Assembly (NCBI GenBank): GCA_026125795.1
Contig: JAHCKM010000001.1
Coordinates: 1,240,001 to 1,304,000, forward strand
DNA from: Burkholderiaceae bacterium
GTDB lineage: Bacteria; Pseudomonadota; Gammaproteobacteria; Burkholderiales; Burkholderiaceae_C
Reading direction: 5' to 3'
Length of the DNA stretch: 64,000 nt
Numbering within the stretch: position 1 is the stretch's first letter; every line of letters starts with the position of its first letter. The notes under the pieces were generated by a model. The model saw only the letters and a list, made by a program, of their open reading frames with translations. It was not told where the DNA came from and searched no databases. The translations under genes were made by a program, and so were the position numbers. Shown piece by piece: positions 2,373-63,924 of this stretch.

Positions 2373-2386
2373 TTGATCGAGCGCAA
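2373..2386 (-). promoter_or_regulatory. FNR/CRP-type dyad upstream of pncB
   Basis: TTGATCGAGCGCAA has a consensus FNR left half (TTGAT) and the CGCAA right half seen at many other sites in this window. It is centred 76 bp upstream of the pncB ATG. No convincing -10 hexamer was found at the expected 32-bp distance, so it is weaker than the others. Confidence 0.45.
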
Positions 2387-2450
2387 GGCGGCCGCCGCGA
2401 GATCGCCTAGAGTTTCTTTGCCACCGCGCCAAGGGCGTTGCCCGTTGAAG

Positions 2451-2554
2451 CGGTTTGGGCGCGAGAGCAGGGCCATGGTCCCATGGCCCGTCGAAACCGC
2501 GGCGTCAGCGTCGCGGTCGTTGCCCGAAGTTCAGGCGGGCCTGCCTCAGGCAGG
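2451..2554. repeat. Nested and serial inverted repeats upstream of the phosphatidyltransferase
   Basis: A perfect 9-bp inverted repeat with a 2-bp loop (GGGCCATGG / CCATGGCCC) lies at 2470-2489. It is nested inside CGGTTT (2451-2456) and AAACCG (2494-2499). A second hairpin, CCTGCC-TCA-GGCAGG, lies at 2540-2554. The 293-bp gap 2304-2596 otherwise holds only the FNR-like site. It could be a structured leader of the downstream gene or a decayed mobile repeat. Confidence 0.5.
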
Positions 2555-2596
2555 ACCTGCGGCGCGGTGGCCTCGTTCCAATGGCAAAGTGAAGCC

Positions 2597-3151
2597 GTGA
2601 ACCCCGTTGTTCAGCGGCTGTTGCCCAACGCGCTGACCGTGCTGCGCCTGCTGCTGGCGCCGGTGATCGCCGGGCTGCTGTGGCGGCGCCACGATGCGCT
2701 GGCGCTGCCGCTGTTTCTCTTTGCCGCGCTCTCGGACTTCGTCGACGGCATGCTGGCGCGCCGCTGGCAGCAGCGCTCGCGCTTCGGCGCGCTGGTCGAC
2801 CCGCTCGCCGACAAGGCCACCGGCGTGCTGGTGGTGGTGGTGCTGACGCTGCAGGGCAGCCTGCCGCTGTGGTTCGCGGCGACCGTGGTGGCGCGCGACG
2901 TCGTCATCGTCGGCGGCGCGCTGGCCTATCACGCCCGGTTCGGCCGCGTCGAGATGGCACCGAGCGCGGTCTCCAAGCTGAACACCGCGCTGCTGTTCGT
3001 GCTGCTGCTGAGTGTGTTGTGTGCACGCGTTGGCCTCCTGCCGACGGGATGGTGGCTGCAGGCACTGCTGTGGGCCACGCTGGCGACCACCATCGCTTCG
3101 GGCGTGCACTACGTGGTGATGGGGGTGCGCAAGGCACGCGGCGGCGCTTGA
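2597..3151 (+). CDS. CDP-alcohol phosphatidyltransferase family membrane protein
   Basis: The 184-residue integral membrane enzyme carries the family signature DG-x2-AR-x8-G-x3-D-x3-D, seen as DGMLARRWQQRSRFGALVDPLAD at about residues 47-70. Such enzymes swap CMP of a CDP-alcohol for another alcohol in phospholipid synthesis (PgsA, Pss and Cls-like members). The substrate cannot be told from sequence. Five or six hydrophobic segments follow. GTG at 2597 is preferred to the in-frame ATG at 2438, because the intervening 53 residues are low-complexity and lie across inverted repeats. It may act with the CDP-archaeol-synthase-like gene at 34.5 kb, but that is inference. Confidence 0.78.
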   Translation: MNPVVQRLLPNALTVLRLLLAPVIAGLLWRRHDALALPLFLFAALSDFVDGMLARRWQQRSRFGALVDPLADKATGVLVVVVLTLQGSLPLWFAATVVARDVVIVGGALAYHARFGRVEMAPSAVSKLNTALLFVLLLSVLCARVGLLPTGWWLQALLWATLATTIASGVHYVVMGVRKARGGA

Positions 3152-3198
3152 GCCACCCGCCAAGGCCTGCAAGCCGGCGCAACGCAGCCACCGCCCGA

Positions 3199-3240
3199 TT
3201 GAGCGAGCGCAAGGCCTTCGGCGGAGTCCGGCTCCATCGT
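3199..3240 (+). promoter_or_regulatory. FNR/CRP-type class II promoter of the nitroreductase gene
   Basis: TTGAGCGAGCGCAA at 3199-3212 is followed by the -10-like hexamer CATCGT at 3235-3240, 32 bp from the dyad centre. The dyad centre is 66 bp upstream of the ATG at 3272. The same 14-mer recurs exactly at 11894-11907. Confidence 0.6.
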
Positions 3241-3271
3241 TGCACCACTTGCGACACCGAAGGAGCCCGCC

Positions 3272-3874
3272 ATGTCCACCGTTGCACTGAACCTCGAAAC
3301 CGACGATGTCGTCCTGCCCGCGCCGGCGCTGCCCGAGCGCGCCACGCTCGAGGCGACGCTGCGGCAGCGCAAGAGCACGCGCGACGTGCGGGCCGACGCG
3401 CTGCCGCTGGCCACGCTGTCGGCGCTGCTGTGGGCCGCCTTCGGCATCAACCGCTCCGGCAGCGGCGGTCGCACTGCACCGTCGGCGCACAACTGGCAGG
3501 AGACCACCGTGTACGCCGTGCTGCCGGAAGGCAGCTACCGCTACGACGCACCCAGCCACCGGCTGTGCCTGGTGAAGGCGCAGGACCTGCGCCACCTGAC
3601 GGGCACGCAGCCGTTCGTGGGCAGCGCACCGTTGAACCTGGTGTACGTGGCCGACTTCGCGCGCATGCCCGATGTCGCGCCGCACGAGCGTGAGTTCCTG
3701 GCCGGCGTGGCGTCGGGCTGCATTGCGCAGAACGTGTACCTGGCCTGCGCGGCGTTCGGCCTCGGCACCGTGCTGCGCGGCCTGGTGGATCGGCGTGCGC
3801 TCGCGCACGCGCTCGGCTTGCCGCCCACGCAACGCATCACGCTGGCGCAGAGCGTCGGCGTGCCCTTGTCCTGA
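3272..3874 (+). CDS. SagB/nitroreductase-family FMN oxidoreductase
   Basis: The 200-residue protein has the nitroreductase fold: RKSTRDV near the N-terminus and GGRTAPSAHNWQET for FMN phosphate and flavin contacts, then GVASGCIAQNVYLACAAFGL, the family helix at the dimer interface, and LAQSVGVP at the end. In SagB-type members this single-domain flavoenzyme works in peptide modification, but no precursor peptide or cyclodehydratase is present here, so a general NAD(P)H-dependent reductase is likelier. A good AAGGAG ribosome site lies 8 bp upstream of ATG. The HPF-like gene follows after 23 bp and is probably cotranscribed. Confidence 0.8.
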   Translation: MSTVALNLETDDVVLPAPALPERATLEATLRQRKSTRDVRADALPLATLSALLWAAFGINRSGSGGRTAPSAHNWQETTVYAVLPEGSYRYDAPSHRLCLVKAQDLRHLTGTQPFVGSAPLNLVYVADFARMPDVAPHEREFLAGVASGCIAQNVYLACAAFGLGTVLRGLVDRRALAHALGLPPTQRITLAQSVGVPLS

Positions 3875-3897
3875 ATCCTTCTCATGGAGAAACGACG

Positions 3898-4434
3898 GTG
3901 AAACAACCGCTGGAAGTGCGTTTTCTCGGCCTCGAGCCGTCACCTGCCGTCGAGGCGGCGGCCCGCGCGAAGGCCGCCAAGCTCGACCAGTTCCGCGGCG
4001 ACCTGATGTCGTGCCGCGTCACGATCGAGCTGGCGCACAAGCACAAGCACCAGGGGCAACCCTTTGCGGTGCGCATCGACGCGACCATGACGGGCCGGGA
4101 GTTGTGCGTCGATCGTGTGCAGCACGAGGACGTGTACGTCGCGCTGCGCGATGCCTTCGACGACATGAAGCGGCAGATCGAGGAGTCGGCACAACGCGCG
4201 CGCGGCGAGGAGAAGCTGCACGCCCAGGAGTTGCACGGCGAAGTGGTGCGCGTCAGCGACGCAGACCGCTGCGGCTTCATCCGCACCGCCGATGGCGACG
4301 AGTACTGGTTCGGGCCGGACAACGTGGCCGGCACGCCCTGGGAGCACGTGCAGATCGGTGCCGAGGTCCGCTTCATACCGGAGTTGGCTGCCCAAGGGCG
4401 CCAGGCCAAGCGCGTCAGCGTGAGCCGGCGCTGA
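3898..4434 (+). CDS. HPF/RaiA-like ribosome-associated protein with C-terminal cold-shock-like domain
   Basis: The 178-residue protein starts at GTG with GGAG 8 bp upstream. Residues 1-105 resemble the hibernation-promoting factor/YfiA fold: KQPLEVRFLGLEPSPAVEAAARAKAAKL, a basic KHKHQG patch and the YVALRDAFDDMKRQIE helix. Residues 115-178 (GEVVRVSDADRCGFIRTADGDEYWF) read like a cold-shock OB domain. HPF proteins dimerise or silence ribosomes in stationary phase. The added OB domain suggests RNA binding. It follows the nitroreductase gene and precedes the ACP-ligase fusion. Confidence 0.8.
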   Translation: MKQPLEVRFLGLEPSPAVEAAARAKAAKLDQFRGDLMSCRVTIELAHKHKHQGQPFAVRIDATMTGRELCVDRVQHEDVYVALRDAFDDMKRQIEESAQRARGEEKLHAQELHGEVVRVSDADRCGFIRTADGDEYWFGPDNVAGTPWEHVQIGAEVRFIPELAAQGRQAKRVSVSRR

Positions 4435-4492
4435 TGCGCCAGCCTGCCTGACGCACCGGCTCCTGCGCCGGCGCATCCCCGCCGCCGCACGA

Positions 4493-7342
4493 ATGCCCAT
4501 GGTGCAGGCGATGGATCAGGTCACCGGCATCACCCCGCTCGCGGACGGCACGAAGCGGCCGGTGACTGCCGCGCAGTTGGCGGCGGTCATGCGGACGTTC
4601 CTGCGCGAGCTGCGCGGCGCCGACGCCGCGCCGCCCGCGCTCGACGATGACCTGGAACGTGCGCTCGGCATCGACAGCCTGGCGCGCATGGAGTTGATGC
4701 TGCGCCTGGAGCAGGCGTTCGACCTGAGGATTGCCGAAGCGGCCATGCAAGCGGCCAAGACGCCGCGCGACTTGCTGCGCGCCCTGGCCGTGGCGCTGCC
4801 GCATGCCGATGCCGCGCGTGCCGTACCGGCCGTTGCGAGCGTTGCGGCGGCATCCGTGCCCGGCGCGGCGGACTTTCCGCGCCAGGCCGCGACGCTGCTC
4901 GACGTGCTGCAGTGGCAGGCCGAGCGCGCCGGCACGCGCCGGCATGTGGCGCTGCTGCGCGACGAGCAGGCGCCGCACGAGCTGAGCCATGCCGGGCTGC
5001 TCGAGCGCGCGCGGTCGGTGGCCGGTGCGCTGCAGCGCTGGGGGCTCGCACCCGACGAGGTGGTGTCGTTGATGCTGCCCACCGGCACGGCGTTCCTGGA
5101 ATGTTTCATGGGCATCCTGCTCGCCGGCGGCGTGCCCGTTCCGATCTACCCGCCGTTGCGGGCCTCGCAGATCGAGGACCACTTGCGACGGCAGGCGCAC
5201 ATCGTCGCCAACGCGCGTGCGGTCCTGTTGATCACCGACGAGCAGGCCTTGCCCGCGGCGCGCATCCTGCGCGCGGGTGCGCGCGAGCTGCGTGCGGTGC
5301 TCACCGCCGAAGGGCTGCGCGCGGCGGGCGGCCGCTGGCAGCCGGTGGCGCGCAGCGCGCACGACACGGCGCTGATCCAGTACACCTCCGGCAGCACCGG
5401 GCAGCCCAAGGGCGTGGTGCTCACGCACGCCAACCTGCTGGCCAACATCCGCGCGATGGGACAGGCCCTGAAGGCCACGCCGGACGATGTCTTCGTGAGC
5501 TGGCTGCCGCTGTATCACGACATGGGTCTGATCGGCGCCTGGCTCGGCAGCCTCTACCACGGCCTGTCGCTGGTGCTGATGTCGCCGCAGGCGTTCCTGG
5601 GGCGGCCGTCGCGCTGGCTGCGCGCCATCAGCGAGCACCGCGCCACGCTGACCGGCGCGCCCAACTTCGCCTACGAGATCCTCGCCACGCGGGTGCCGGA
5701 CGACGACTTGCGCGGCCTTGATCTGGGCTGCCTGCGCGCGGCGATCAACGGCTCTGAACCGGTGCATGCGACCACGCTGACGTCGTTCTGCGAGCGCTTC
5801 GGCCGCAGCGGCTTTGACCGGCGCGCGCTGATGCCGACGTATGGCCTGGCCGAATGCGGCGTCGGCCTGGCGTTTCCGCCGCTTGGGCGCGGTCCCAGGG
5901 TCGACGTCATCGATCGACAGGTGCTGCGCGACGAGGGCCTGGCTCATCCGGTGGACGCCAAAAACGCCAGTGCGATGCACGTGGTGGCCTGCGGCGTGCC
6001 GCTGCCGGGGCACGAGCTGCGCGTCATCGACGAGCACGCTGCGGAGTTGCCGGACCGGCACGAGGGGCGCATTCAGTTCCGGGGGCCGTCGGCCACGGCC
6101 GGGTACTTCGGCAACGCGGAGGCCACGCGAGCCTTGTTCCACGGCGACTGGCTCGACACGGGCGACGTCGGTTATGTCGTCGACGGCGAGATCCACCTGA
6201 CCAGCCGCGTGAAGGACCTGATCATCCGCGGCGGGCACAACATCCATCCGTACGACCTGGAAGAGGCGATCGGCGCGCTGCCCGGCGTGCGGCGCGGCTG
6301 TGTCGCCGTGTTCGGCGCCACCGACCCGCAGACGCGCAGCGAGCGCGTGGTCGTGCTGGTGGAGACGCGCGCCGAGGACGCCCGCGCCCGAACCGCGCTG
6401 CACGAGCGGATCGCGCAGCTGAGCATCGAGGTGCTCGGCCTGCCGACCGACGACATCGTGCTGGCGCCGCCACACACCGTGTTGAAGACGTCCAGCGGCA
6501 AGATCCGCCGCGCCGCCTGCCGCGCCCTCTATGAGCAAGGACAGCTCGCGGCTCACGAGCGCAGTGTCGCCGCGCAACTGGCGCGGCTGTGGATGGACGC
6601 GGCGCACCGCCGCCTGCGCGGGCCGCTTCGGCAGTCTGGATCGGCGCTGTTCGCGGCCTGGGTCTGGACGGTGTTCGGCATCGGAGCGCTCATCGGCGCG
6701 CTGGCCGCGCTGCTGCCGCATCGCGCCGCGCGCAAGCAGGTGGCACGCGCCGTCGCTCGCGCCGGGCTGCGCGTCAGCGGGCTGCCGCTGCAGGTGCAGG
6801 GCGAGGCGGCGCTGCAAGGCGACCGCGGGATCGTCGTCTGCAACCACGCGAGCTACCTCGATTGGCTGGTGCTCACGGCCGTGCTGCCGGCGTCGGCATG
6901 CCTGGTGGCCAAGCGCGAGCTGGCGGGGGTGGCGTTGGTGGGCTGGGTGCTCGGGCGCATGGGCGTGCGCTTCGTCGAGCGCGACGACGTGCATGCCAGC
7001 GTCGAGGGTGCGAAGGATCTGGTGCAGGCCGCCAAGGCGGGGGAGATGCTGGTGTATTTCCCCGAGGGCACGCTGACGCGCGCACCCGGCCTGCGACCGT
7101 TTCACATGGGCGCATTCGTCGCGGCGGCACAGGCCCATGTCGCGGTGCTGCCGGTCAGCCTGCGCGGCACGCGATCGGTGTTGCGCGATGGCTCATGGTG
7201 GCCGCGCCGCGAGCCGGTCACCGTGCAGGTGCACGCGCCGCTGGCGGCCGACGGCGACTCCTGGTCGGCCGCGCTGCGCCTGCGTGATGCGGCGCGCGAG
7301 CGGATCGCGCGCGGCTGCGGGGAGCCTGTACTGGCCGGCTGA
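4493..7342 (+). CDS. Three-domain fusion: acyl carrier protein, fatty-acyl AMP ligase, 1-acylglycerol-phosphate acyltransferase
   Basis: The 949-residue protein begins with an ACP domain whose phosphopantetheine serine is S62 in GIDSLAR. An AMP-dependent synthetase follows, with YTSGSTGQPKG from residue 297, and PTYGLAE and GGHNIHPYDLEE further on. It ends with a hydrophobic segment and a PlsC-type acyltransferase having NHASYLD (784-790) and FPEGT (856-860). The order suggests that an acid is activated as acyl-AMP, loaded on the in-cis carrier and transferred to a lysophospholipid or other alcohol, as in the Aas acylation cycle. The substrate is unknown. ATG at 4493 is the first in-frame start, but no clear ribosome site is visible and ATGs at 4499 and 4508 are alternatives. 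It follows the HPF-like gene by 58 bp. Confidence 0.85.
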   Translation: MPMVQAMDQVTGITPLADGTKRPVTAAQLAAVMRTFLRELRGADAAPPALDDDLERALGIDSLARMELMLRLEQAFDLRIAEAAMQAAKTPRDLLRALAVALPHADAARAVPAVASVAAASVPGAADFPRQAATLLDVLQWQAERAGTRRHVALLRDEQAPHELSHAGLLERARSVAGALQRWGLAPDEVVSLMLPTGTAFLECFMGILLAGGVPVPIYPPLRASQIEDHLRRQAHIVANARAVLLITDEQALPAARILRAGARELRAVLTAEGLRAAGGRWQPVARSAHDTALIQYTSGSTGQPKGVVLTHANLLANIRAMGQALKATPDDVFVSWLPLYHDMGLIGAWLGSLYHGLSLVLMSPQAFLGRPSRWLRAISEHRATLTGAPNFAYEILATRVPDDDLRGLDLGCLRAAINGSEPVHATTLTSFCERFGRSGFDRRALMPTYGLAECGVGLAFPPLGRGPRVDVIDRQVLRDEGLAHPVDAKNASAMHVVACGVPLPGHELRVIDEHAAELPDRHEGRIQFRGPSATAGYFGNAEATRALFHGDWLDTGDVGYVVDGEIHLTSRVKDLIIRGGHNIHPYDLEEAIGALPGVRRGCVAVFGATDPQTRSERVVVLVETRAEDARARTALHERIAQLSIEVLGLPTDDIVLAPPHTVLKTSSGKIRRAACRALYEQGQLAAHERSVAAQLARLWMDAAHRRLRGPLRQSGSALFAAWVWTVFGIGALIGALAALLPHRAARKQVARAVARAGLRVSGLPLQVQGEAALQGDRGIVVCNHASYLDWLVLTAVLPASACLVAKRELAGVALVGWVLGRMGVRFVERDDVHASVEGAKDLVQAAKAGEMLVYFPEGTLTRAPGLRPFHMGAFVAAAQAHVAVLPVSLRGTRSVLRDGSWWPRREPVTVQVHAPLAADGDSWSAALRLRDAARERIARGCGEPVLAG

Positions 7343-7375: not shown

Positions 7376-8635
7376 TTACAGCCGGGCCAGCATCTCGGCG
7401 TTGATCAGCACCACGCCGGACTCGGTGCGCTCGAAACGGCGCGCGTCGAGCACCGGATCCTCGCCGACCACCAGGCCCTCGGGCAACGAGCAGCGCCGGT
7501 CGATCACCACCTTGCGCAGGTGGCAGCCGCGACCGACCGTCACGTCGGGCAGCACGACCGACTGCTCCATGTGGCAGAACGAGCGCAACTGCACGCCGGA
7601 GAACAGCACCGAGTCGGAGAGATGAGATCCCGCGACGATGCAGCCGCCGGACACCAGCGTGTTCACGGCCACACCGTGCCGGCCGTGCTCGTCGCGGATG
7701 AACTTGGCCGGCGGCAGCTGGTGCTGGTAGGTCCAGATCGGCCACTGCCGGTCGTAGATGTCGAGCTCGGGATCGATCGAGGCCAGATCTAGGTTGGCCG
7801 CCCAGAACGCGTCGATCGTGCCGACGTCGCGCCAGTACGGCGGCGCGCCGTTCACGTTGAGGATGCACGACTGCGCGAACGGATGCGCCAGCGCGCGGCC
7901 CTGGGCCACCGCGCGCGGGATCACGTCCTTGCCGAAGTCGTGGCTCGACGCGGGATCGGCCAGGTCGGCGGTCAGCAGGTGATAGAGGTACTCGGCATCG
8001 AACACATAGATGCCCATGCTGGCCAGCGAGCGGTCCTCGCGGCCGGGCAGGCCGGGCGGCTCGGGCGGCTTCTCGACAAACGAGGTGATGCGGCGCGACC
8101 CGTCGACGGCCATAACGCCGAAGGCGCAGGCTTCGCTGCGCGGCACCTCGATGCAGCCCACGGTGCAGGCTGCGCCTTGCTCGACATGGTCGCGCAGCAT
8201 CACCGAGTAGTCCATCTTGTAGACATGGTCGCCGGCCAGCACCACGATGTACGACGGCGCTGCCTGCCGGATGAAATCGAGGTTCTGGAACACCGCGTCG
8301 GCGGTGCCGCGGTACCAGTGGTCATCGCCCACGCGCTGCTGCGCGGGCAGCGCCTCCACCATCTCGTTGAGCTCGGCGCGCAAGAAGCTCCAGCCGCGCT
8401 GCAGGTGGCGCAGCAGCGAGTGCGATTCGTACTGCGCCACCACGCCGATGCGGCGGATGCCCGAGTTGATGCAGTTCGACAGCGTGAAGTCGACGATGCG
8501 GAACTTGCCGCCGAAGTGCACCGCCGGCTTGCAGCGATGCTCGGTGAGCTGCTTCAGGCGCGCGCCGCGCCCGCCGGCCAGCACGACGGCCATCGTGCGG
8601 CGGATCAGTTGGTGCGAAGTGACGGCTCGATCCAT
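7376..8635 (-). CDS. glgC: Glucose-1-phosphate adenylyltransferase (ADP-glucose pyrophosphorylase)
   Basis: The 419-residue enzyme makes ADP-glucose from glucose-1-phosphate and ATP, the committed step of bacterial glycogen synthesis. The nucleotidyltransferase motif [22 protein letters not shown] is near the N-terminus, with [10 protein letters not shown] and FVEKP in the middle and [17 protein letters not shown]. The C-terminal third is the left-handed beta-helix regulatory domain ([21 protein letters not shown]). The ATG at 8635 is preferred to the TTG at 8668. It diverges from glk with an FNR-like dyad between the two. A second, shorter paralogue lies at 33.0-34.0 kb. Confidence 0.93.
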
Positions 8636-8667: not shown

Positions 8668-8709
8668 AGGCTGACGCCGGTCCTCGACACCGGCCTTGTC
8701 TTGGCGCAA
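8668..8709. promoter_or_regulatory. FNR/CRP-type site in the glgC-glk divergent promoter region
   Basis: TTGTCTTGGCGCAA at 8696-8709 is centred 67 bp from the glgC ATG and 77 bp from the glk ATG. Toward glgC a weak -10 (CAGCCT, complement of 8668-8673) lies 32 bp from the centre. Toward glk a CATGGT at 8730-8735 lies 30 bp away. The left half TTGTC departs from the other sites. Confidence 0.4.
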
Positions 8710-11265: not shown

Positions 11266-11278
11266 CGGGACCTGCCTT

Positions 11279-11865: not shown

Positions 11866-11907
11866 AGTGGAGCCGAAACCGCGTGGCGCGGCGTTGAGCG
11901 AGCGCAA
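11866..11907 (-). promoter_or_regulatory. FNR/CRP-type promoter for archease-rtcB
   Basis: TTGAGCGAGCGCAA at 11894-11907 is identical to the site at 3199. On the minus strand the hexamer TCCACT (complement of 11866-11871) is 32 bp from the centre, the same hexamer and spacing as upstream of cbpA at 59.5 kb. A start near 11859 would give the archease mRNA a leader of about 160 nt (11696-11859), in which I see no gene. Confidence 0.5.
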
Positions 11908-16012: not shown

Positions 16013-16086
16013 CGTGCCCCCTTGGGCCTGCGGCCCGTCCCCCCGAGGGGGAGCGAGCGCCTTCGGAGCGGCCGTGCGTCGCTCAT
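16013..16086 (-). repeat. 74-bp structured intergenic element, copy A
   Basis: Read on the minus strand the element starts with ATGAGC, supplies the TGA stop of the upstream membrane-fusion gene, and ends directly before the ATG of the ATPase. It contains three successive hairpins: GAGCG/CGCTC, CCCCC-TCG-GGGGG and GGGCC-GCA-GGCCC, then AAGGGGG as ribosome site. Copy B at 38092-38165 has the same length, order and position relative to its gene, with compensatory stem changes. Confidence 0.75.
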
Positions 16087-17189: not shown

Positions 17190-17216
17190 GGTCGGCACTC
17201 CGTGGGCGGCGGCATG

Positions 17217-18360: not shown

Positions 18361-18402
18361 ATGTTGTGCGCATCGATCGCCGTGCGCGTTGAGCAAGCGC
18401 AA
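18361..18402 (-). promoter_or_regulatory. FNR/CRP-type promoter of the CBS-exporter operon
   Basis: TTGAGCAAGCGCAA at 18389-18402 has the minus-strand hexamer CAACAT (complement of 18361-18366) 32 bp from its centre. A start near 18354 would leave a leader of about 11 nt before the ATG at 18343. The divergent stress-protein gene begins 169 bp away, and toward it no -10 was found at the right distance. Confidence 0.55.
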
Positions 18403-22125: not shown

Positions 22126-22167
22126 AAGATAGGCACGCCTGTGCAGCACACCCTTGATGCGGCTCAA
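22126..22167 (-). promoter_or_regulatory. FNR/CRP-type class II promoter of the small exported protein
   Basis: TTGATGCGGCTCAA at 22154-22167 is followed on the minus strand by TATCTT (complement of 22126-22131), 32 bp from the dyad centre. The dyad is 71.5 bp upstream of the ATG. The same TATCTTG hexamer context occurs upstream of the second glgC. Confidence 0.65.
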
Positions 22168-29547: not shown

Positions 29548-29589
29548 TTGACCCAGCGCAAGCCCGTGGCGCGCGCGGCGGGCCATGGT
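29548..29589 (+). promoter_or_regulatory. FNR/CRP-type promoter, predicted leaderless
   Basis: TTGACCCAGCGCAA at 29548-29561 and CATGGT at 29584-29589 are 32 bp apart, centre to centre. The implied transcription start coincides with the A of the ATG at 29596. The divergent gap 29365-29595 holds nothing else that I recognise. Confidence 0.5.
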
Positions 29590-29595: not shown

Positions 29596-30528
29596 ATGGA
29601 GACGCATGCGCAGCCCGATTCGACGAGCCGGCCGTCCGACCGCGGCAACGCCGCGGTGGCGCAGATGCTGCGCGAGATGGCCGACCTGCTGCAGGCGCAG
29701 GGCGAGGCCAATCCGTTTCGCAGCGCCGCCTATCGACGCGCGGCCGACACGGTGGCGGCGAGCCCGGTCGCGGTGGTGGAGCTGTTCGAGCGCGAGGGGC
29801 TGTCAGCGCTCGACGCGCTGCCCGGCATCGGGCCCGGCATCGCCGCGGCGATCGCCGAGATCGCGCAGACCGGTCGGTGGACGCGGCTCGATCGCCTGCG
29901 CGGCACGTCGGACCCGCAGGCGGTGTTGCGCACCATTCCCGGCGTGGGGTCGCAGCTGGCGGCGCGGCTGCACGACGAGCTCGGCGTCGAGACGCTGGAG
30001 GAACTCGAGCTGGCCGCGCACGACGGCCGCCTGGAGCGCCTGCCGCAGCTCGGCGCACGGCGCGCCGCCGCGATCCGCGCCGCGCTGACCCAATTGCTCG
30101 ATCGCACGCGCCTGCTGCGGCGGCCTGCGGCGGGCCCGTCTTTGCAGCCGCAGGTGCCGGTCGAGCTGCTGCTCGATGTCGATCGGCAATACCGCGCCGC
30201 CGCGGCGGCCGGGCAGCTACCCAGGATCAGCACGCGCCGTTTCAACCCCGAGGGCAAGCCCTGGCTGCCGGTGCTGCACACGCACCGCGCCGGGCACAAC
30301 GTGACCGCCCTGTACTCCAACACCGCACGCGCCCACGAGCTGGGCCGCACGCACGACTGGGTGGTGCTCTACGTGGAGGACGGTGCGCATCGCGAACGCC
30401 AGTACACCGTGGTCACCGCGGCACGCGGCGCGCTCGCCGGGCGGCGTGTCGTGCGCGGGCGCGAGGACGAGTGCGCCGCGTGGTATGCGCGTGCGGCCGG
30501 TGCGCCGCGCGCCGCAACGGCCGCCTGA
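29596..30528 (+). CDS. Helix-hairpin-helix protein related to the PolX N-terminal domain
   Basis: The 310-residue protein begins like the 8-kDa domain of family X DNA polymerases (VAQMLREMADLLQAQGEANPFRSAAYRRAA), then has HhH motifs in ALPGIGPGIAAAIAEI and TIPGVGSQLAARL. The polymerase palm with its Asp triad is absent. The C-terminal part (~190-310; GKPWLPVLHTHRAGHNVTALYSNTARAHEL) is a separate module often following such HhH regions. A DNA-binding or repair role is inferred. ATG at 29596 is chosen although the frame stays open far upstream. It is directly followed by lon. Confidence 0.75.
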   Translation: METHAQPDSTSRPSDRGNAAVAQMLREMADLLQAQGEANPFRSAAYRRAADTVAASPVAVVELFEREGLSALDALPGIGPGIAAAIAEIAQTGRWTRLDRLRGTSDPQAVLRTIPGVGSQLAARLHDELGVETLEELELAAHDGRLERLPQLGARRAAAIRAALTQLLDRTRLLRRPAAGPSLQPQVPVELLLDVDRQYRAAAAAGQLPRISTRRFNPEGKPWLPVLHTHRAGHNVTALYSNTARAHELGRTHDWVVLYVEDGAHRERQYTVVTAARGALAGRRVVRGREDECAAWYARAAGAPRAATAA

Positions 30529-30566
30529 TCTGGCGCAAGCGTGCGGCATTCCGCCGCTCGCACGAT
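30525..30566 (+). promoter_or_regulatory. FNR/CRP-type promoter of lon
   Basis: CTGATCTGGCGCAA at 30525-30538 overlaps the stop codon of the preceding gene. CACGAT at 30561-30566 lies 32 bp from its centre. The first base is C instead of T. The dyad is 83.5 bp upstream of the lon ATG. Confidence 0.5.
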
Positions 30567-33992: not shown

Positions 33993-34033
33993 AAGATAGA
34001 CGCGCAGGCTCGCGTCACCTTGAGCCGCATCAA
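33993..34033 (-). promoter_or_regulatory. FNR/CRP-type class II promoter of the short glgC-like gene
   Basis: TTGAGCCGCATCAA at 34020-34033 is one of the two sites with a perfect ATCAA right half. TATCTT on the minus strand (complement of 33993-33998) lies 31 bp from its centre, and the ATG is 64.5 bp from the centre. Confidence 0.65.
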
Positions 34034-34126: not shown

Positions 34127-34168
34127 TTGCGCCGGCGCAAGGCTGCCGGCCCGGCGCGGCGCCACAGT
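34127..34168 (+). promoter_or_regulatory. Perfect palindromic dyad and -10, predicted leaderless
   Basis: CTTGCGCCGGCGCAAG at 34126-34141 is a perfect 16-bp palindrome containing TTG-N8-CAA. CACAGT at 34163-34168 is 32 bp from the centre, and the implied start is the A of the ATG at 34175. Confidence 0.55.
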
Positions 34169-36156: not shown

Positions 36157-36264
36157 TCAGTGTCGGCGGCGCCCGCCGTGTCGGCTTGACGGACATCAAG
36201 CGCCGCCAACGCGGCTCGCGCTTTGAGATTGAGCAAGCGGGCGCCGCGCCGTCGGGCGCATGCT
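36157..36264. promoter_or_regulatory. Two FNR/CRP-type dyads between divergent genes
   Basis: TTGACGGACATCAA at 36186-36199 is centred 94.5 bp from the host-attachment-like ATG (36098), with a possible minus-strand GACACT (complement of 36159-36164) 31 bp away. TTGAGATTGAGCAA at 36223-36236 is centred 70.5 bp before the ATG at 36300, with CATGCT at 36259-36264 32 bp from its centre. Each gene thus appears to have its own site. Confidence 0.6.
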
Positions 36265-57421: not shown

Positions 57422-58062
57422 GGCGTCACCTCGGCCAAGTGCTGGTTGAACCATTCGCCGGCCGAGAAGGCCACCTGCTGCAGCGCGCCGGCTTCCTCGA
57501 ACAGGTGCGTGGCGCGCGGCACCACCTCGAGCCGGCTGGGGCAGTGCAGCAGGCGCTGCGCGGCGCGATTGAGCGCCAGCACCTGCGCGTCGAGCGCACC
57601 GACCAGCAGCAGCGTCGGCGCTTTCACCTGCTGCAGCACCGCGTCGCCGGCCAGATCGGGACGCCCGCCGCGCGACACCACGGCCGAGACGTCCTGCGGG
57701 CGCTCCGCCGCCGCCACCAGCGCCGCGGCGGCGCCGGTGCTGGCGCCGAACAAGCCCAGGCGCAAACCGGTCAATCGAGGATGCTCGCGCGCCCAGGCCA
57801 TGGCCTGCAGCAGGCGACGCGTCAGCAATCCGATGTCGAAAACGTTGGCGGCGTCGTGCGCCTCGTTCTCGGTCAGCAGATCAAACAGCAGCGTGCCGAG
57901 GCGGCGCGTGTGCAGCACCTCGGCCACGTAGCGGTTGCGCACGCTGTGGCGGCTGCTGCCGCTGCCGTGTGCGAACACCACCAATCCGCGCGGCGCGGCC
58001 GGTACGACCAGATCACCACCCAACGCGTGAGGGCCGATCAGGACTTGCTGCTGAATCATCAT
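57418..58062 (-). CDS. Alpha/beta hydrolase (dienelactone-hydrolase-like)
   Basis: The 214-residue hydrolase has VVFAHGSGSSRHSVRNRYVA at the oxyanion region, LGLFGASTGAAAALVAAAERP with the nucleophile elbow Gly-Ala-Ser-Thr-Gly, LLLVGALDAQVLALNR carrying the Asp, and the His in RATHLFEEAGAL. First gene of the hydrolase-phosphoribosyltransferase-kinase operon, with a GGGGA site before ATG at 58062. An FNR-like promoter lies 61.5 bp upstream. Confidence 0.87.
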   Translation of the reverse strand: MMIQQQVLIGPHALGGDLVVPAAPRGLVVFAHGSGSSRHSVRNRYVAEVLHTRRLGTLLFDLLTENEAHDAANVFDIGLLTRRLLQAMAWAREHPRLTGLRLGLFGASTGAAAALVAAAERPQDVSAVVSRGGRPDLAGDAVLQQVKAPTLLLVGALDAQVLALNRAAQRLLHCPSRLEVVPRATHLFEEAGALQQVAFSAGEWFNQHLAEVTP

Positions 58063-58089: not shown

Positions 58090-58130
58090 ATTGGAGCGCG
58101 CTGCGCCGTGACGGCATTGAGGTGGCGCAA
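58090..58130 (-). promoter_or_regulatory. FNR/CRP-type promoter of the hydrolase operon
   Basis: TTGAGGTGGCGCAA at 58117-58130 has the minus-strand hexamer TCCAAT (complement of 58090-58095) 31 bp from its centre, a four-of-six match to TATAAT. Confidence 0.6.
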
Positions 58131-58171: not shown

Positions 58172-58489
58172 TCACTGCAAGCCGGCGCGGCGCAAGCGGG
58201 TCTTGAGCGCATCGATCTCGTCGAGCAGCTCCAGGACGAGCGCCATCGCATCGACACCGAGCTGGAGGTCGCGCCTCAGCCGCCAGGCGGTGCGCGCACG
58301 GACCAGCGCCGTGCCCTCGAACTGCCAGTCGTCCGGGCCGCTGCCGGTGGGGCTCAGCAACCCTTCGTCGACCAGCGCGGCGATGAACGAGGGCTCTACC
58401 GCGCAGGCCCGGCACAGATCGGCCAGGGTGAACCGCAGGTCATGCTCGACGACGACGGCTTCGATGACGGTTCTCTCGGTGTCGGTCAT
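58172..58489 (-). CDS. cbpM: Chaperone modulator CbpM
   Basis: The 105-residue protein fits CbpM, the MerR-like inhibitor of CbpA: LRFTLADLCRACAVEPSFIAALVDEGLL is the reduced winged-helix start, followed by RARTAWRLRRDLQLGVDAMALVLELLDEIDAL. It binds the J-domain of CbpA. The ATG at 58489 is preferred to an overlapping TTG at 58495. It follows cbpA directly. Confidence 0.87.
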   Translation of the reverse strand: MTDTERTVIEAVVVEHDLRFTLADLCRACAVEPSFIAALVDEGLLSPTGSGPDDWQFEGTALVRARTAWRLRRDLQLGVDAMALVLELLDEIDALKTRLRRAGLQ

Positions 58490-58491
58490 GG

Positions 58492-59436
58492 TCAACCCTC
58501 GAGTTCGCGACGCGGATTGAAGTGGGGAAAGGCGTGCGCCAGCGCCGCATAGGCCTGCGCCGCCGCGGGGGTGTCGGCGGGTGGCGCCGCGATCGCTAGC
58601 ACGGCATACAGATCACCCGGCGGCGTGCCCGGCAGCCCCTTGCCCTTCAGCCTGAGCTTGCGGCCCGCACCCGAGCCCGCGGGAACCGTGATCTGCACGC
58701 TGCCGTCGGGCGTCGGCGCGACCACGGTGGCGCCGAGCGCGGCCTCCCACGGGGCGACCGGCAGGTCCATGTACACGTCGCGGCCGTCGACGCGAAAGTG
58801 CGGATGCGGCTGAAATCCGATCTCGAGGTACAGGTCGCCCGCGGGCGTGCCGCCAACGCCCGGGCTGCCTTGGCCCGACAGGCGCAGGTGCTGGCCTTCG
58901 CGCACGCCGGCGGGGATCCGCACGTCGAGCTGGCGCTCGCGCAGCGAGACGCGGCCCTGCGCGTCGACCACCGGCATGCGCAGCGTCAGGGTCTTGCGTG
59001 CGCCGCGGTAGGCATCCTGCAGGTCGATCACGATCCTCGCGTGGCGGTCGCCGCCGGTGCGCGGCATGCCGCGCGCCGGGCCGCCGCCCATGCGGTGGCC
59101 GAACAGCGACTCGAAGAAGTCGCTGAAGTCCATGTCGGCGCCAGGGCCTGCATCACGACCGCTGAACTCGAACCCGCCACCGTCCCAGCCGGGCGGCGGA
59201 TGGAACTCACCGCGTTGACCGTAGCGCTGGCCCACGTCGTCATAGGCGGCGCGTTTCTCGGGGTCGCTGAGCACCTCGTGCGCCTCGGCCACCTCCTTGA
59301 AGCGCGCCTCGGCATCGGGCTCCTTGCTGACGTCGGGGTGGTACTTGCGCGCCAGCTTGCGGTAGGCGCGCTTGATCTCGTCCGACGAGGCCGTGCGCTC
59401 GACGCCGAGCGTGGCGTAGTAGTCCCTGAACTCCAT
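58492..59436 (-). CDS. cbpA: DnaJ-like co-chaperone CbpA
   Basis: The 314-residue protein has a J-domain at 4-68 with HPD (KYHPDV), a Gly/Phe-rich linker ([27 protein letters not shown]), and two DnaJ C-terminal beta domains ([19 protein letters not shown] and [12 protein letters not shown]). No zinc-finger domain is present, as in CbpA. It stimulates DnaK under stress or stationary phase. ATG at 59436. The operon cbpA-cbpM is the E. coli order. It diverges from the FAD oxidase with an FNR-like dyad between. Confidence 0.92.
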
Positions 59437-59476: not shown

Positions 59477-59547
59477 AGTGGATGGGAAGATTCGTGCGGC
59501 CGATTTGACCTTGCGCAAGAGCGCCGGCTCGAACGCCGTGACACGAT
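59477..59547. promoter_or_regulatory. Bidirectional FNR/CRP-type promoter region
   Basis: TTGACCTTGCGCAA at 59505-59518 has minus-strand TCCACT (complement of 59477-59482) 32 bp toward cbpA and plus-strand CACGAT (59542-59547) 33 bp toward the FAD oxidase. The centre is 75.5 and 65.5 bp from the two start codons. One dyad may thus serve both directions. Confidence 0.6.
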
Positions 59548-59576: not shown

Positions 59577-60890
59577 TTGAGCCTGCTGGATTCCGACCAC
59601 GATCTCGCCCGTGATTCGTACTATGCGGCGACGTCGCCGCGGCAGGCATCGTTCCCACGGCTCCAGGGGTCGGCCCACTGCGACGTGGCCATCGTCGGCG
59701 CCGGCCTGGCCGGCTTGTCGGCCGCGATCGAGCTGGCGGACCGGGGGTTCGATGTGCGCGTGCTGGAGGCGCGCCAGGTCGGTTGGGGCGCCAGTGGTCG
59801 CAACGGCGGCCAGGCGATCCACGGCGTCGGCTGCGATCCGCTGGAGATCGAGCGTCAGCTGGGGCTCGACGAAGCGCGCCGCGTGTGGGCCGCCACGCTC
59901 GAAGGGCTCGACATCATCCACGCGCGCTGCCGGCGCTTCGCCATCGATGCCGAGTGGCGAAGCGGTTACCTGATGCCGGCGGTGCACGCGCGCCGAGCCC
60001 GCATGCTGCAGGCGCTGGCCGATCGGCTTGCCACCCACTATGACTACCCGTTGCGGCGCATCGGGCCCGATGAGATCGGCCGCTGGATCGCCAGCCGGCG
60101 CTTCCACAGCGCGCTGCACGATGCGCGCTCCGGCCACCTGCATCCATTGAAGTACGCACGCGGCCTGGCACGCGGCGCGGCATCGCTGGGCGTGCAGATC
60201 CACGAAGACACGCGCGTCAACGCGCTGGTGGCCGGCGCAAGACCAAAGCTGCTCACGCCGCAGGGCGTGTTGAGCGCGCGCCAGGTGCTGCTGGCCGGCA
60301 ACGCCTATCTGCAGGGCGTCGCGCCGCGACTCGAGGGGCGCATCATGCCGATCGAGACCTTCATCGCCGCGACCGAGCCGCTGCCCGAGCCGCTCGCGGT
60401 GTCGCTGATCCCGTCGGGCTCGGCGGTGTCGGACAACAACTTCGTGCTCGACTACTTTCGTGTCTCGAACGACCACCGGCTGCTGTTCGGCGGCGGCGAA
60501 AGCCACCGTGCGTCTCGTCCGTCCGATGTGGCCGCGGCGATGCGCCAGCGCATGCTGCTGGTGTTCCCGCAGCTGGCGCAGGTGCGCTTCGAGCACGTGT
60601 GGGGCGGCGTGGTCGACGTGACGCTGAACCGGGCTCCCGACTTCGGTCGTCTGCCGGCCAGTTCGCACAGCCCCAACGTGTACTACCTGCAGGGCTTCTC
60701 CGGTCATGGCCTGGCGCTGACCGGCATCGCGGGACGCATCGTGGCCGAGGCGATGGCGGGCGACGCGTCGCGTTTCGATGTGTTCGCGCGCTTGAAGCAC
60801 CGTGTGTTTCCCGGCGGCCGTTGGTTGCGCGCACCGGCGCTGCGGCTGGGCCTGGCCTGGTATCGGTTGCGCGACGCGCTGGCGTGGTGA
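59577..60890 (+). CDS. FAD-dependent amine oxidase, PuuB/DAO family
   Basis: The 437-residue flavoprotein has the FAD Rossmann motif [20 protein letters not shown] (~36-55) and [17 protein letters not shown], the family signature of gamma-glutamylputrescine oxidase and related DAO enzymes. It ends in [23 protein letters not shown] at 59577 is the start because [20 protein letters not shown] is the usual N-terminal run. Next to homospermidine synthase, a polyamine substrate is likely, but glycine- or sarcosine-type substrates are not excluded. Confidence 0.87.
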
Positions 60891-60903: not shown

Positions 60904-62322
60904 CTACGTGACGCGGAAGTTCTTGAACTGCCACGGGTCGTCGCGATCGAGATCTTCGGTGAACAGCCAGTCGCGCCCGCTCAACGGCGTCCAGTCGCTG
61001 AACACGCCCACCACGTCGCCGAGGTAAGGGCGGCACAGGCGCAGCATCTCGTCGTGCGGCAGGTCGTCGGGCTCGACGATGTCGCGCGTGGGGTTCTTCA
61101 TCGCCCACACCACGCCGGCCATCACCGCCGCGGCCACCTGCAGGCTGGTGGCGCTGTTGTGCGGGCACAGCCCGCGTGCCTGCTCGATGCTCAAGCGCGA
61201 GCCATACCAGTAGGCGCCGCGCGCGTGGCCCATCAGCAGCACGCCGAGCTCGTCGATGCCCGAGACGATGTCGTCCTTCAGCACGCGGTTGCGGCTCTGC
61301 TTGCGCCAGTTGCGTCCCGCCAGCTCGTGCAGCGAGAGCACGGCGTCGTCGCACGGGTGATACGCATAGTGCACCGTGGGCCGGTAGTGCGGGCGGGCCC
61401 GATCGCCGAGCGTCAGGTAATCGGCGATCGCGATCGATTCGGTGTGCGTGACCAGGAAGCCTTGTTGCGCGCCGGCCAGCGGGGTCCAGGTCCGCACGCG
61501 CGTGGCGGCGCCGGGCCGGTTCAGGTAGATCGCGGCCAGCGAGCCTTCCGAGTGGCGCGAGCCGTCGGTGGGAAAGTGCCGTTCGTGGCTGCCCCATCCG
61601 AGCTCGGCCGGCTGCGTGCCCTCGTCGACGAAGCCTTCGACCGACCAGGTGTTGACGAACTCGCCGGCGCGCTTGCGCTGCGCGCCCACCTGCGAGTCGC
61701 GCTCGGCGACGTGGATCACGCGCACGCCGAGCGATTGCGCCAGGCGGGCCCAGCCCTCGCGGCTGCGCGGCGCCCGTCGCTCCCCACCCGCGGCCACGGC
61801 GATGTCGATCAGCGCCTGCTTGACGAAGTAAGAGACCAGGCCCGGGTTGGCGCCGTGGGTCAGCACCGCGGTGGGCGCGTCGCCGGACGGGCTGCGCAGC
61901 GCCAAGGCCGCCTCGCGCAGCGCGTAGTTGGTGCGCTGCGCCGGCGTGAGCGAGGCGTCGAGGTAGCCGCCGGCCCAGGGTTCGATGCAGGTGTCGAGGT
62001 ACAGCGCGCCGCGTTCGCGCGCCAGCGCGATCAGCGCCAGGCTGCTGACGTCGACCGACAGGTTCAGCACGAAGTCGCCCGGTTCCAGGCGCGGCGCCAG
62101 CACCTGCCGCAGGTTGTCGGCGTCCAGCGCCGTCACCAGGGTCTGCACGCCGGCTTGGTGCGCCGCCTCCAGGTCGCTGTCGTGCGGCTTGATGATCAGG
62201 ACCTGCTCGGGCCGCATCGCGATGTGGCGCAGCAGCAGGGGCAAGGTGCCCTGTCCGATGCAGCCGAAGCCGATCATCACCAGCCGGCCGTTGAAGACGT
62301 GTTCCTTGTGCGCCTCGCCCAT
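60904..62322 (-). CDS. Homospermidine synthase
   Basis: The 472-residue NAD-dependent enzyme makes sym-homospermidine from two putrescines. FNGRLVMIGFGCIGQGTLPLL is the family NAD-binding start, with LTHGANPGLVSYFVKQAL and HPCDDAVLSLHELAGRNWRKQS following. Length and motifs match bacterial HSS. Its ATG (62322) is preceded by an FNR-like site at the distance expected of a leaderless transcript. It converges on the FAD oxidase with a 13-bp gap. Confidence 0.92.
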   Translation of the reverse strand: MGEAHKEHVFNGRLVMIGFGCIGQGTLPLLLRHIAMRPEQVLIIKPHDSDLEAAHQAGVQTLVTALDADNLRQVLAPRLEPGDFVLNLSVDVSSLALIALARERGALYLDTCIEPWAGGYLDASLTPAQRTNYALREAALALRSPSGDAPTAVLTHGANPGLVSYFVKQALIDIAVAAGGERRAPRSREGWARLAQSLGVRVIHVAERDSQVGAQRKRAGEFVNTWSVEGFVDEGTQPAELGWGSHERHFPTDGSRHSEGSLAAIYLNRPGAATRVRTWTPLAGAQQGFLVTHTESIAIADYLTLGDRARPHYRPTVHYAYHPCDDAVLSLHELAGRNWRKQSRNRVLKDDIVSGIDELGVLLMGHARGAYWYGSRLSIEQARGLCPHNSATSLQVAAAVMAGVVWAMKNPTRDIVEPDDLPHDEMLRLCRPYLGDVVGVFSDWTPLSGRDWLFTEDLDRDDPWQFKNFRVT

Positions 62323-62330
62323 GGATGGTG

Positions 62331-62371
62331 ATTGAACCTGGGCGCTCGAAACCCGCGTTGACGCATCTCAA
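62331..62371 (-). promoter_or_regulatory. FNR/CRP-type promoter of homospermidine synthase
   Basis: TTGACGCATCTCAA at 62358-62371 has minus-strand TTCAAT (complement of 62331-62336) 31 bp from the centre. The dyad is only 42.5 bp from the ATG, so the transcript would have little or no leader. Confidence 0.5.
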
Positions 62372-62519
62372 TCGAACGAGCGCGCGGCGCGAGCGGCATG
62401 AGCCGCCGCAAGTCCTGGAGCCCACGAGCGATGCGAGACTCGCGACCGTGAATCGCGCCGAACCGCCGGTCTGCCCGGGCTCGACCCACGCCGCCGCGGC
62501 CGCGCCGCCCGGCCATGCG

Positions 62520-63314
62520 ATGAGCACCGACGAGATTCGCAAGGTCGTGTCCGACGTCATTGCATCGATCGCGCCGGACTTCGAGCGCGAACGGATCGAG
62601 CCCGCGCGCCCGTTGCGACAGCAAGTGGAGCTCGACTCGATGGACTGGATCAACGTGCTGTCGGGCCTGCAGGAGCGGCTGCAGGTCGACATCCCGGCAT
62701 GCGATGCGGGCCAGCTGACGACGCTGGACGCGATCGTCGGCTATCTGGCGCTGCGGCTCGCCAAGCCTGTCGAGCCCGCGCAGGCACGCGCCGATGCATG
62801 GACGGCGCTGCCCCATGCCTTCGATCTCGCCGATGGCACGCGCGTCACGGTGCGACCCATCCGCGCCGACGACGCGGCGTTGGAGGCGGCTTTCGTGCGC
62901 CGCCTGTCGGCCGAGTCGCGCTACATGCGATTCATGGCCACGATGCGCGAGCTGCCGCAGCCCCTTCTGGAGTCGCTGACCGATGTGGACGCGGTCCACC
63001 ACGTGGCGCTGGCGGCCACGGCACGCCGCGACGACAAGGAGGTCCTGCTCGGTGCGGCGCGCTACGTGGTCGACGCCGCGGGCACGGGCTGCGAGTTCGC
63101 CGTGGCCGTCGATGATGCGTGCCAAGGCTCGGGCCTGGCCGGACGCCTGATGCAGACGCTGCTCGAGGTCGCTCGGCAGCGCGGCCTCAAGCGCATGGAA
63201 GGCACGGTGCTGGCCAACAACCGCAGGATGCTGAAGTTCATGCGCCAGCTGGGTTTCAGCGTGCGGCGCGATCCCGACGATCCGCACAACGTGCTGGTGG
63301 CCCGCGCGCTCTGA
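62520..63314 (+). CDS. Fusion of acyl carrier protein and GNAT acetyltransferase
   Basis: The 264-residue protein has an N-terminal ACP (residues 1-80) with Ser40 in the motif LDSMDWINVLSGL, then a GNAT domain (~90-264): VRPIRADDAALEAAFVRRLS, GCEFAVAVDDACQGSGLAGRLMQTLLEVA (acetyl-CoA pyrophosphate loop Q-x2-G-x-A/G) and LKFMRQLGFSVRRD. ATG at 62520 is chosen because ACP homology starts there. An alternative GTG at 62448 would add 24 residues. The carrier is paralogous to the free ACP at 22.2 kb, so the transferase may use acyl-ACP instead of acyl-CoA. Confidence 0.8.
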   Translation: MSTDEIRKVVSDVIASIAPDFERERIEPARPLRQQVELDSMDWINVLSGLQERLQVDIPACDAGQLTTLDAIVGYLALRLAKPVEPAQARADAWTALPHAFDLADGTRVTVRPIRADDAALEAAFVRRLSAESRYMRFMATMRELPQPLLESLTDVDAVHHVALAATARRDDKEVLLGAARYVVDAAGTGCEFAVAVDDACQGSGLAGRLMQTLLEVARQRGLKRMEGTVLANNRRMLKFMRQLGFSVRRDPDDPHNVLVARAL

Positions 63315-63375
63315 AGCGGCGCCTTGGCGCGCCCGCGACGCATCGATCGCCTGTGACCGACGCGGGGCTGTCGGC

Positions 63376-63858
63376 TCAAGCGCCGAGCGGCGTGCCCGAT
63401 ATCGACCGTTCGTGACGCTGCGCCGCCCCCACCGCGTTGGCCAGCGCGCCCATGGCCTCGGCGACGACCGTCAGCACATCGTCGATCGCGACCACGCCGA
63501 CGAGACGGTGGAGCTCGTCGACCACCGGCACGCGGCGCACGCCCTTGCGCTGCATCGTGGCCAGCACGTCGAGCACCGAGTCGCTTTCGCGTGCGGTCAC
63601 GACGCTCGCGCTCATCACGTCGGCGACCCTCAGCGTCTGGGGGTCCTTCTGTGTCGCGACCACCGCGGTGACGATGTCGCGATCGGTCAGCACGCCGACC
63701 ACGTGGCGATCGGTGGTGCTGCGCTCCTGCACGACGACCAGGCTGCCGACGCGCTGGTCGCGCATCACGCGCGCGGCCTCGTCGATCGACAGCTCGGGGT
63801 AGGCCACCGACACGATGCGGGTGCAGATATCGCCAGCGGTCAGTTTGTGCTCGAACAT
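63376..63858 (-). CDS. Two-CBS-domain protein
   Basis: The 160-residue protein consists of two CBS motifs: VAYPELSIDEAARVMRDQRVGSLVVVQ with HVVGVLTDRDIVTAVVATQ, then VVTARESDSVLDVLATMQRKGVRRVPVV with RLVGVVAIDDVLTVV. Such pairs bind AMP/ATP or related ligands and sense energy state. It is a complete version of the short CBS protein at 18.1 kb. ATG at 63858 is preferred to the adjacent ATG at 63861 because of AGGAG spacing. Confidence 0.9.
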   Translation of the reverse strand: MFEHKLTAGDICTRIVSVAYPELSIDEAARVMRDQRVGSLVVVQERSTTDRHVVGVLTDRDIVTAVVATQKDPQTLRVADVMSASVVTARESDSVLDVLATMQRKGVRRVPVVDELHRLVGVVAIDDVLTVVAEAMGALANAVGAAQRHERSISGTPLGA

Positions 63859-63882
63859 CATCGCTCCTGTTGCGCAGCCACC

Positions 63883-63924
63883 AGCATCAACCGCGCATCG
63901 CGGCGCACGGTTGCGCCATGTCAA
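63883..63924 (-). promoter_or_regulatory. FNR/CRP-type class II promoter of the CBS protein
   Basis: On the minus strand TTGACATGGCGCAA (63924-63911) is followed by GATGCT (complement of 63883-63888) 32 bp from the centre. The ATG is 59.5 bp from the dyad centre. Confidence 0.6.

Follow-up and report, generated by a model that had tools for sequence, protein, structure and literature searches.

The micro-oxic FixK2 regulon of Bradyrhizobium diazoefficiens, a bacterium of soybean nodules, comprises FixK2-dependent targets measured at 0.5% oxygen; FixK2 itself contains a single cysteine, which rules out a four-cysteine cluster, and its induction depends on a two-component system (PMC9104804). 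In the Burkholderia cepacia complex, where a FixLJ/FixK system has also been described, the low-oxygen-activated (lxa) locus is a large island induced at low oxygen, for which an FNR/FixK-type protein, BCAM0049, has been proposed as the regulator (PMC6127331, PMC3759415, PMC9104464, PMC5234846). The Fnr paralogues of Herbaspirillum seropedicae share promoters (PMC5934665), and in P. aeruginosa the FNR-type protein Anr controls universal stress proteins (USPs) at low oxygen (PMC6127331). Here we describe a predicted regulon of this kind in a Burkholderiaceae bacterium (assembly GCA_026125795.1), centred on a 64,000-nucleotide stretch of contig JAHCKM010000001.1 (positions 1,240,001 to 1,304,000), hereafter the window. 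A 14-bp palindromic box, composed mostly of TTGA(T/C/G) and TTGCG half-sites, occurs upstream of many of its operons.

In window coordinates, the stretch dense in such boxes extends from about -31 kb to about +75 kb (C1 of the genome, ~1.209-1.315 Mb), so that the window is the middle of an island of ~106 kb. With a probability of roughly 0.8, the operons of this island are switched on together by predicted FNR/FixK-type activators, with low oxygen, by analogy with the FixK2 regulon, as the presumed signal. A preliminary description had ascribed the boxes of the window to an FNR/CRP-type regulon, an interpretation that is largely supported. The island proved larger than the window, and the earlier account had overlooked both a regulator without the four-cysteine cluster (referred to below as cluster-less), which lies outside the window, and a two-component pair.

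The enrichment of TTG-N8-CAA is real. The window contains 20 copies, compared with 4.9 +/- 2.4 in dinucleotide shuffles, none of 100 of which reached 20. Eighteen of the 20 are intergenic, corresponding to 2.36 per kb of intergenic DNA, a density 7-fold that of 12 control stretches of 20 kb from the same genome (0.33 per kb, from 9 sites across 27.3 kb of intergenic sequence). When gapped palindromes were scanned in the intergenic DNA of the island (64 triplets at 13 gaps, scored only with at least 8 occurrences), TTG-N8-CAA had the highest z-score, with 33 copies versus 2.3 expected, and a control set 2.5 times as large contained 9; the runner-up, TGA-N6-TCA, is the inner portion of the same box. 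Classified by positions 4-5, 32 of the 34 half-sites in the window (17 sites) are of the AT, AC, AG or CG types, 13 of the 34 being TTGCG-type. Genome-wide, the specific forms exceed their controls as well, with 82 copies of TTGA-N6-TCAA versus 26 of its reversed control, and 55 of TTGA-N4-GCGCAA (both strands) versus 24.

Class II activators of the FNR/CRP family bind with their dyad centred at -41.5 from the transcription start, which places it about 32 bp from the centre of the -10 element. Genes were called with a simple codon-usage script over the window and 80 kb on each side (some starts, such as that of lon, are doubtful), and every unselected site with a gene start no more than 260 bp away was scored for a NANNNT hexamer whose centre lies 31-33 bp from the dyad. 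The region of ~120 kb contains 34 intergenic sites, of which 33 have a gene start in this range; the remaining site (44695) was left out of our class II counts. A class II hexamer accompanies 26 of the 33 sites, or 26 of 32 within the island proper. Counted as oriented promoters, 27 of 54 carry NANNNT at 31-33, whereas other offset triples average 3.75 and never exceed 8 (binomial 1e-9, with the maximum control triple taken as the rate), and the distribution of dyad-to-hexamer offsets at these sites peaks at 32. Judged from sequence, a class II FNR/FixK architecture of the island promoters is supported.

The same spacing was observed in relatives. A scan of a species-genome collection retained 80 of 95 relatives, 57 of which encode a member (at least 52% identity) of the family of L035, the cluster-less regulator of the island; 18 Pandoraea and five other weaker loci were left out of the family. 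The carriers are nearly all labelled as Burkholderiales genera or metagenome-assembled genomes, a few only as Betaproteobacteria, Gammaproteobacteria or Pseudomonadota. Their loci hold 174 intergenic sites, distributed over 54 of the 57, at 1.59 per kb versus 0.119 per kb of coding DNA; the corresponding densities in the 18 Pandoraea loci are 0.64 and 0.18. Fourteen of the 174 sites were left out, having no gene start within 260 bp or lying less than 120 bases from the end of the locus, and 132 of the other 160 show a class II hexamer; by oriented promoter the count is 137 of 250 (control triples, mean 19.5, maximum 34). Class II boxes are kept at orthologous leader genes coding for carbamoyltransferase-like proteins (13/13), hemerythrin (8/8), USPs (8/11) and nitronate monooxygenase (5/5), and other clusters of orthologous leaders have none (0/15, 0/10). 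The class II architecture, the many-operon regulon and the FNR/CRP-family assignment of the preliminary description hold in these unselected tests, in the controls and in the 57 related loci.

The boxes of the window are given below in window coordinates, with the distance of the hexamer centre from the dyad in bp and the families of the genes behind them as assigned by Pfam.

2338..2351, minus strand: FNR/FixK-type box, predicted class II for pncB (nicotinate phosphoribosyltransferase, 966-2303); CAGGCT at 32.
2373..2386, plus strand: box for a CDP-alcohol phosphatidyltransferase gene (2567-3151); TAGAGT at 31.
3199..3212, plus strand: box for nitroreductase, S30AE ribosome-associated protein and AMP-binding-acyltransferase genes (3272-7342); CATCGT at 32.
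8696..8709, minus strand: box for a sugar-phosphate nucleotidyltransferase gene, labelled GlgC-like (7376-8635); CAGCCT at 32.
11894..11907, minus strand: box 199 bp upstream of the archease-RtcB genes (9835-11695); TCCACT at 32, no NANNNT at 31-33, so that class II is not confirmed there.
18389..18402, minus strand: box for a CBS-domain gene (18119-18343) heading DUF2279, HlyD and ABC-2 export genes (11929-18101); CAACAT at 32. No matching -10 faces the divergent USP gene (18571-19509).
22154..22167, minus strand: box with TATCTT at 32; downstream lies only a weak 93-aa open reading frame (ORF; 21682-21963) without a family.
29548..29561, strand unassigned: box between an RpoD-type sigma gene (27514-29364) and an unsupported plus-strand ORF (29585-30088, no Pfam match); CATGGT at 32, in the plus direction only.
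30525..30538, plus strand: CTG variant box at lon (30471-32972 as called); CACGAT at 32. The box is inside the called ORF; a later lon start is likely.
34020..34033, minus strand: box for a nucleotidyltransferase gene (33015-33962); TATCTT at 31.
34127..34140, plus strand: box for a 118-aa gene without a family (34175-34531); CACAGT at 32.
36186..36199, minus strand: box for a host-attachment/baeRF-type gene (35652-36098); GACACT at 31.
36223..36236, plus strand: box for a GYD-domain gene (36300-36608); CATGCT at 32.
58117..58130, minus strand: box upstream of hydrolase and phosphoribosyltransferase genes (56750-58062); TCCAAT at 31, which does not fit NANNNT.
59505..59518, plus strand: box for a flavin-dependent (FAD) oxidoreductase gene (59577-60890); CACGAT at 33. 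Towards the divergent DnaJ-type/MerR_2 pair (58172-59436) there is only TCCACT at 32.
62358..62371, strand unassigned: box between a saccharopine-dehydrogenase-like gene (60904-62322) and an acetyltransferase gene (62448-63314); no NANNNT at 31-33.
63911..63924, minus strand: box for a two-CBS-domain gene (63376-63861); GATGCT at 32.

All 16 of the 14-mers in the preliminary description are found where it had placed them, that at 30525 being the CTG form, and the pncB box at 2338 had been missed. Its statement that most sites have a -10-like hexamer is borne out by 13 of the 16 in at least one direction, nine of them at exactly 32 bp; the number drops to 12 if 29548 is set aside, and the sites without one are 11894, 58117 and 62358. 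With 12-13 of 16 sites having a matching -10, the estimate of about fifteen operons in the window was roughly right. Two sites end in CTCAA, rather than three, and the box at 8696, formerly assigned to glucokinase, fits the GlgC-like gene on the minus strand instead. The sites at RtcB, DnaJ and the saccharopine-dehydrogenase-like ("polyamine") gene, however, belong to those lacking a matching -10 in that direction.

According to Pfam, the genes of the window code for nicotinate phosphoribosyltransferase, nitroreductase, S30AE ribosome-associated protein, a GlgC-like enzyme, glucokinase, RtcB with archease, HlyD/ABC-2 export, USPs, CBS proteins, an RpoD-type sigma factor, Lon, a DnaJ-type protein with MerR_2, and a host-attachment/baeRF protein. 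Those of the flanks code for FtsH, Cpn60, PhaC, Hsp20, thioredoxin, a phosphoenolpyruvate (PEP)-synthase-like enzyme, cytochrome d1, LonB, a family-X-like DNA polymerase and a cation ATPase. The boxes at 36186 and 36223 are 37 bp apart, back to back for the divergent host-attachment and GYD genes, and an IS110-type transposase gene (36620-37834) follows the latter. The sigma gene (27514-29364) is one of two region-1.1 sigma factor genes of the genome, the other being on C2; the box 184 bp upstream of it has no matching -10 in its direction. A 1.7-kb stretch (43502-45247) is without a called gene and includes one box-like match (44695) lacking a -10. An Rfam scan of the window at gathering cut-offs gave no match. 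Left of the window (-3023 to -2005), a class I fructose-bisphosphate aldolase is encoded in two pieces by overlapping ORFs, reflecting either a real frameshift or a sequencing error.

The genome contains 21 HTH_Crp_2 matches, 15 of which are above the Pfam cut-off; we read 14 CRP/FNR-type sequences and aligned seven of them for their recognition residues. L032 and L033 resemble complete iron-sulphur (Fe-S) FNR proteins, with N-terminal cysteines and a Cys at the position of C122, a residue that L031 lacks, and L034 and L039 appear, by our own reading of their sequences, to be DNR-like. L035 is a cluster-less FNR-type regulator encoded in the island, ~5.5 kb left of the window and followed by the PEP-synthase-like gene. 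Its cluster-less paralogue, L037, belongs to another site-rich region, in which 16 intergenic sites are spread over 140 kb. This second region (C1 1.7400-1.8420 Mb) also includes the kinase/response-regulator pair, CcoG-type and HemN genes and the Fe-S FNR L033.

The sequence features of the L035 family were assessed in 58 proteins, 56 called from relatives and two from our genome (the relative L128, without a called regulator gene, was left out). All 58 have Trp at the position of FNR Cys122, and none shows CxxC..C in its first 60 residues, so that the four-cysteine cluster of FNR proper is absent. Like FixK2, the family thus consists of CRP/FNR-type regulators without this cluster. The E, S and R of the recognition helix are invariant (58/58). 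Two cysteines are widely kept, C103 in 56 of the 58 and that at L035 position 154 in 84%; they are at most candidate equivalents of the redox-active C183 of FixK2. The best solved relatives are FNR (5cvr, 8.6e-29, and variants), followed by FixK2 (4i2o, 3.7e-18).

A hybrid kinase composed of PAS, GAF, HisKA, HATPase and REC modules adjoins the cluster-less regulator in 47 of the 49 loci that have both, and an OmpR-type response regulator (REC, Trans_reg_C) is found two or three genes from the regulator in 47 of 48 loci. Of 160 genomes sampled from the family, 33 carry the FNR-type protein (E <= 1e-55); the response regulator (E <= 1e-75) is present in 29 of these and in 0 of the 127 others (Fisher 7e-28). 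On a Variovorax paradoxus plasmid this module lies among annotated ccoNOQP, ccoG, hemN, USP, phosphoketolase, acetoacetyl-CoA reductase and BON genes. The kinase PAS domain matches FixL (1dp6, E 5e-11), and better still 10jx, a multi-sensor kinase (1e-20). The His of the FixL "RSRH" motif is the heme ligand; the aligned His is kept in 47 of 50 kinase homologues (the other three being gapped), and 10jx likewise has it, so that heme in the kinase PAS is only a lead. FixJ belongs to the NarL/LuxR-like class of response regulators, unlike the linked response regulator, which is of OmpR type (PF00486, Trans_reg_C).

The promoters of the regulator genes contain a conserved array, consensus gatACc.accGTTcACcCAgcGTTACcgAgcG, in 42 of 58 cases. 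Its AC steps are 11, 11 and 10 bp, and AC occurs in 60, 98, 100 and 98% of the 42 arrays, the last two percentages being largely fixed by the search pattern. Of the 30 promoters in which both the array and a CCTA/TCTA-type -10 were found, 27 have the start of the array 55 bp from that -10, and 42 of its 51 occurrences in 1.36 Mb are upstream of the regulator. In our genome it is found five times with one mismatch allowed, exactly at L035 and L037. One single-mismatch copy (C1:1238696) is situated in the island, upstream of two small ORFs without a Pfam family that precede Hsp20, and is a possible further target. The OmpR-type response regulator probably reads the array. Box-to-array spacings also suggested 11-bp steps, which were not used, as they may reflect gain or loss of array units. 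Where a divergent gene lies no more than 250 bp away (35 cases), the FNR box preceding the regulator serves that gene as its class II box in 34, and the idea that FNR controls the regulator gene through this box was set aside on that assignment.

From these features we propose that the two cluster-less FNR-type paralogues, one in the island and one at C1 1.74-1.84 Mb, would be the most likely activators, and that an Fe-S FNR may read the same boxes alongside them. The promoter array of the regulator genes would be read by the OmpR-type response regulator, which travels with the family together with the FixL-like PAS/GAF hybrid kinase. The products of the island, namely chaperones, proteases, stress proteins, export systems and those serving nicotinamide adenine dinucleotide (NAD) salvage and glycogen and polyhydroxybutyrate storage, could help the cell through oxygen shortage. 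Taken together, a rebuilt FixL-FixJ-FixK cascade in Burkholderiales can be suggested tentatively, at somewhat less than even odds: a FixL-like PAS/GAF kinase, an OmpR-type regulator acting on the array, and a cluster-less FNR driving a FixK2-like island, the activator having been duplicated with each copy in a site-rich region.

Several observations weigh against this proposal or parts of it. The genome-wide enrichment that the preliminary description had offered as a check is found for the motif combined with a -10 hexamer (125 versus 36 in the control), whereas the bare motif is not over-represented (761 versus 1042 for the reversed control). In the relatives, leader genes with many orthologues carry class II boxes hardly more often than the other leader genes do (51/188 versus 75/334). 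Within loci, the array is not associated with the kinase pair (p = 0.71), and in our own genome the pair is 15-16 genes from one paralogue, with none beside the other. The zero among the 127 genomes counted as lacking the FNR-type protein rests on a response-regulator cut-off set after a 54% relative had appeared at 2e-71. That relative is in a same-genus genome without the FNR-type protein. Since the box upstream of the regulator belongs to the divergent gene, it provides no evidence of FNR control of the regulator. All seven of our aligned proteins have the E--SR recognition residues, so that the acting regulator could be any of at least seven proteins. Finally, box-plus-hexamer matches exceed the control, judged by eye, in many genomes (not all) both with and without the cluster-less family, so that the boxes do not identify their regulator, and naming it from box abundance across genomes was ruled out.

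This last excess, in genomes devoid of the family, together with the two complete-looking Fe-S FNR proteins L032 and L033, would suit a classical FNR/Anr encoded elsewhere that reads the boxes, the cluster-less paralogues being minor or having lost their function. We consider this rather unlikely, since site density is high around the cluster-less family, in the 57 loci and in both of our own clusters, and the intact recognition residues (58/58) make idle genes improbable. Control of the island by a nitric-oxide-sensing protein of the DNR/NnrR type appears less likely again. The DNR-like L039 is indeed encoded in the island (C1:1211676), three genes from the cytochrome D1 protein, and the NnrR consensus, TTGCG-N4-CGCAA (PMC1274295), recalls the 13 TTGCG-type half-sites of the window; on the other hand, TTGCG halves also occur in FixK2 boxes and mix freely with TTGA halves here, and the one cytochrome d1 gene is the sole nitrogen-oxide gene among the 88 window and flank proteins scanned.

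Several paralogues coexist in the genome and the hybrid TTGA...CGCAA form is the commonest box of the window, as might be expected if heterodimers of two FNR paralogues read hybrid boxes, the arrangement proposed for the Herbaspirillum group III promoters. Hybrids, however, occur in both orientations relative to the gene, and in relatives the half-sites assort independently (A x CG, 40 observed versus 38.9 expected), on which ground the heterodimer reading was rejected; we regard it as quite improbable. Chance or composition, that is, palindromes and AT-rich hexamers in a GC-rich genome, would agree with the unremarkable genome-wide count of the bare motif, and is contradicted by the shuffles, the intergenic controls, the gapped-palindrome scan, the offset controls and the relatives; it is the least probable explanation of all and can be considered refuted.

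If the proposed low-oxygen control by FNR/FixK-type activators is correct, some 25 promoters of genes for proteostasis, NAD salvage, carbon storage, export and stress would be under one low-oxygen switch, and in alpha- and betaproteobacteria alike this box would govern much the same set of survival genes. The cluster-less FNR, the PAS/GAF kinase and the OmpR-type regulator would form a compact, testable three-gene module, the FNR-type and response-regulator parts of which are found together in 29 of the 160 sampled family genomes. A literature search by titles and the openings of abstracts, with most subscription journals outside its coverage, returned no description of this three-gene module or of such an island in these genera. 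The novelty is the module with its array, and not the regulon as such.

Anr is an Fe-S protein, unlike the cluster-less regulator described here. Like this genome, H. seropedicae with its Fnr1 and Fnr3 has several FNR paralogues, usp targets and hybrid half-sites; its Fnr proteins, however, are described among paralogues that keep the cluster cysteines (PMC5934665), and no excess of hybrid sites is seen here. Among the betaproteobacterial islands described so far, the lxa locus comes closest by gene kinds, on which the likeness is based; it holds six USPs, a heat-shock protein, a nitro-reduction protein and metabolic genes. The FixK2 regulon resembles the island in both boxes and genes. Its boxes include TTGA...CGCAA hybrids, TTGCGCGAGCGCAA and a CTGAT variant, and the gene kinds common to both are GroEL, Hsp20, USP, CBS, nitroreductase, DnaJ, PEP synthase, PhaC, host-attachment protein and HlyD/ABC export (PMC9104804). 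In the 24 FixK2 boxes, 47 of 48 half-sites belong to the same four types by positions 4-5, and 9 of 48 are TTGCG. The FixK2 system differs in belonging to an Alphaproteobacterium and in its inducer, FixLJ, as opposed to the OmpR-type response regulator linked here, and the cluster-less family is nearer by sequence to FNR than to FixK2. Since its boxes and gene kinds match those of the FixK2 regulon, the island regulon is most likely the betaproteobacterial counterpart of that known regulon.

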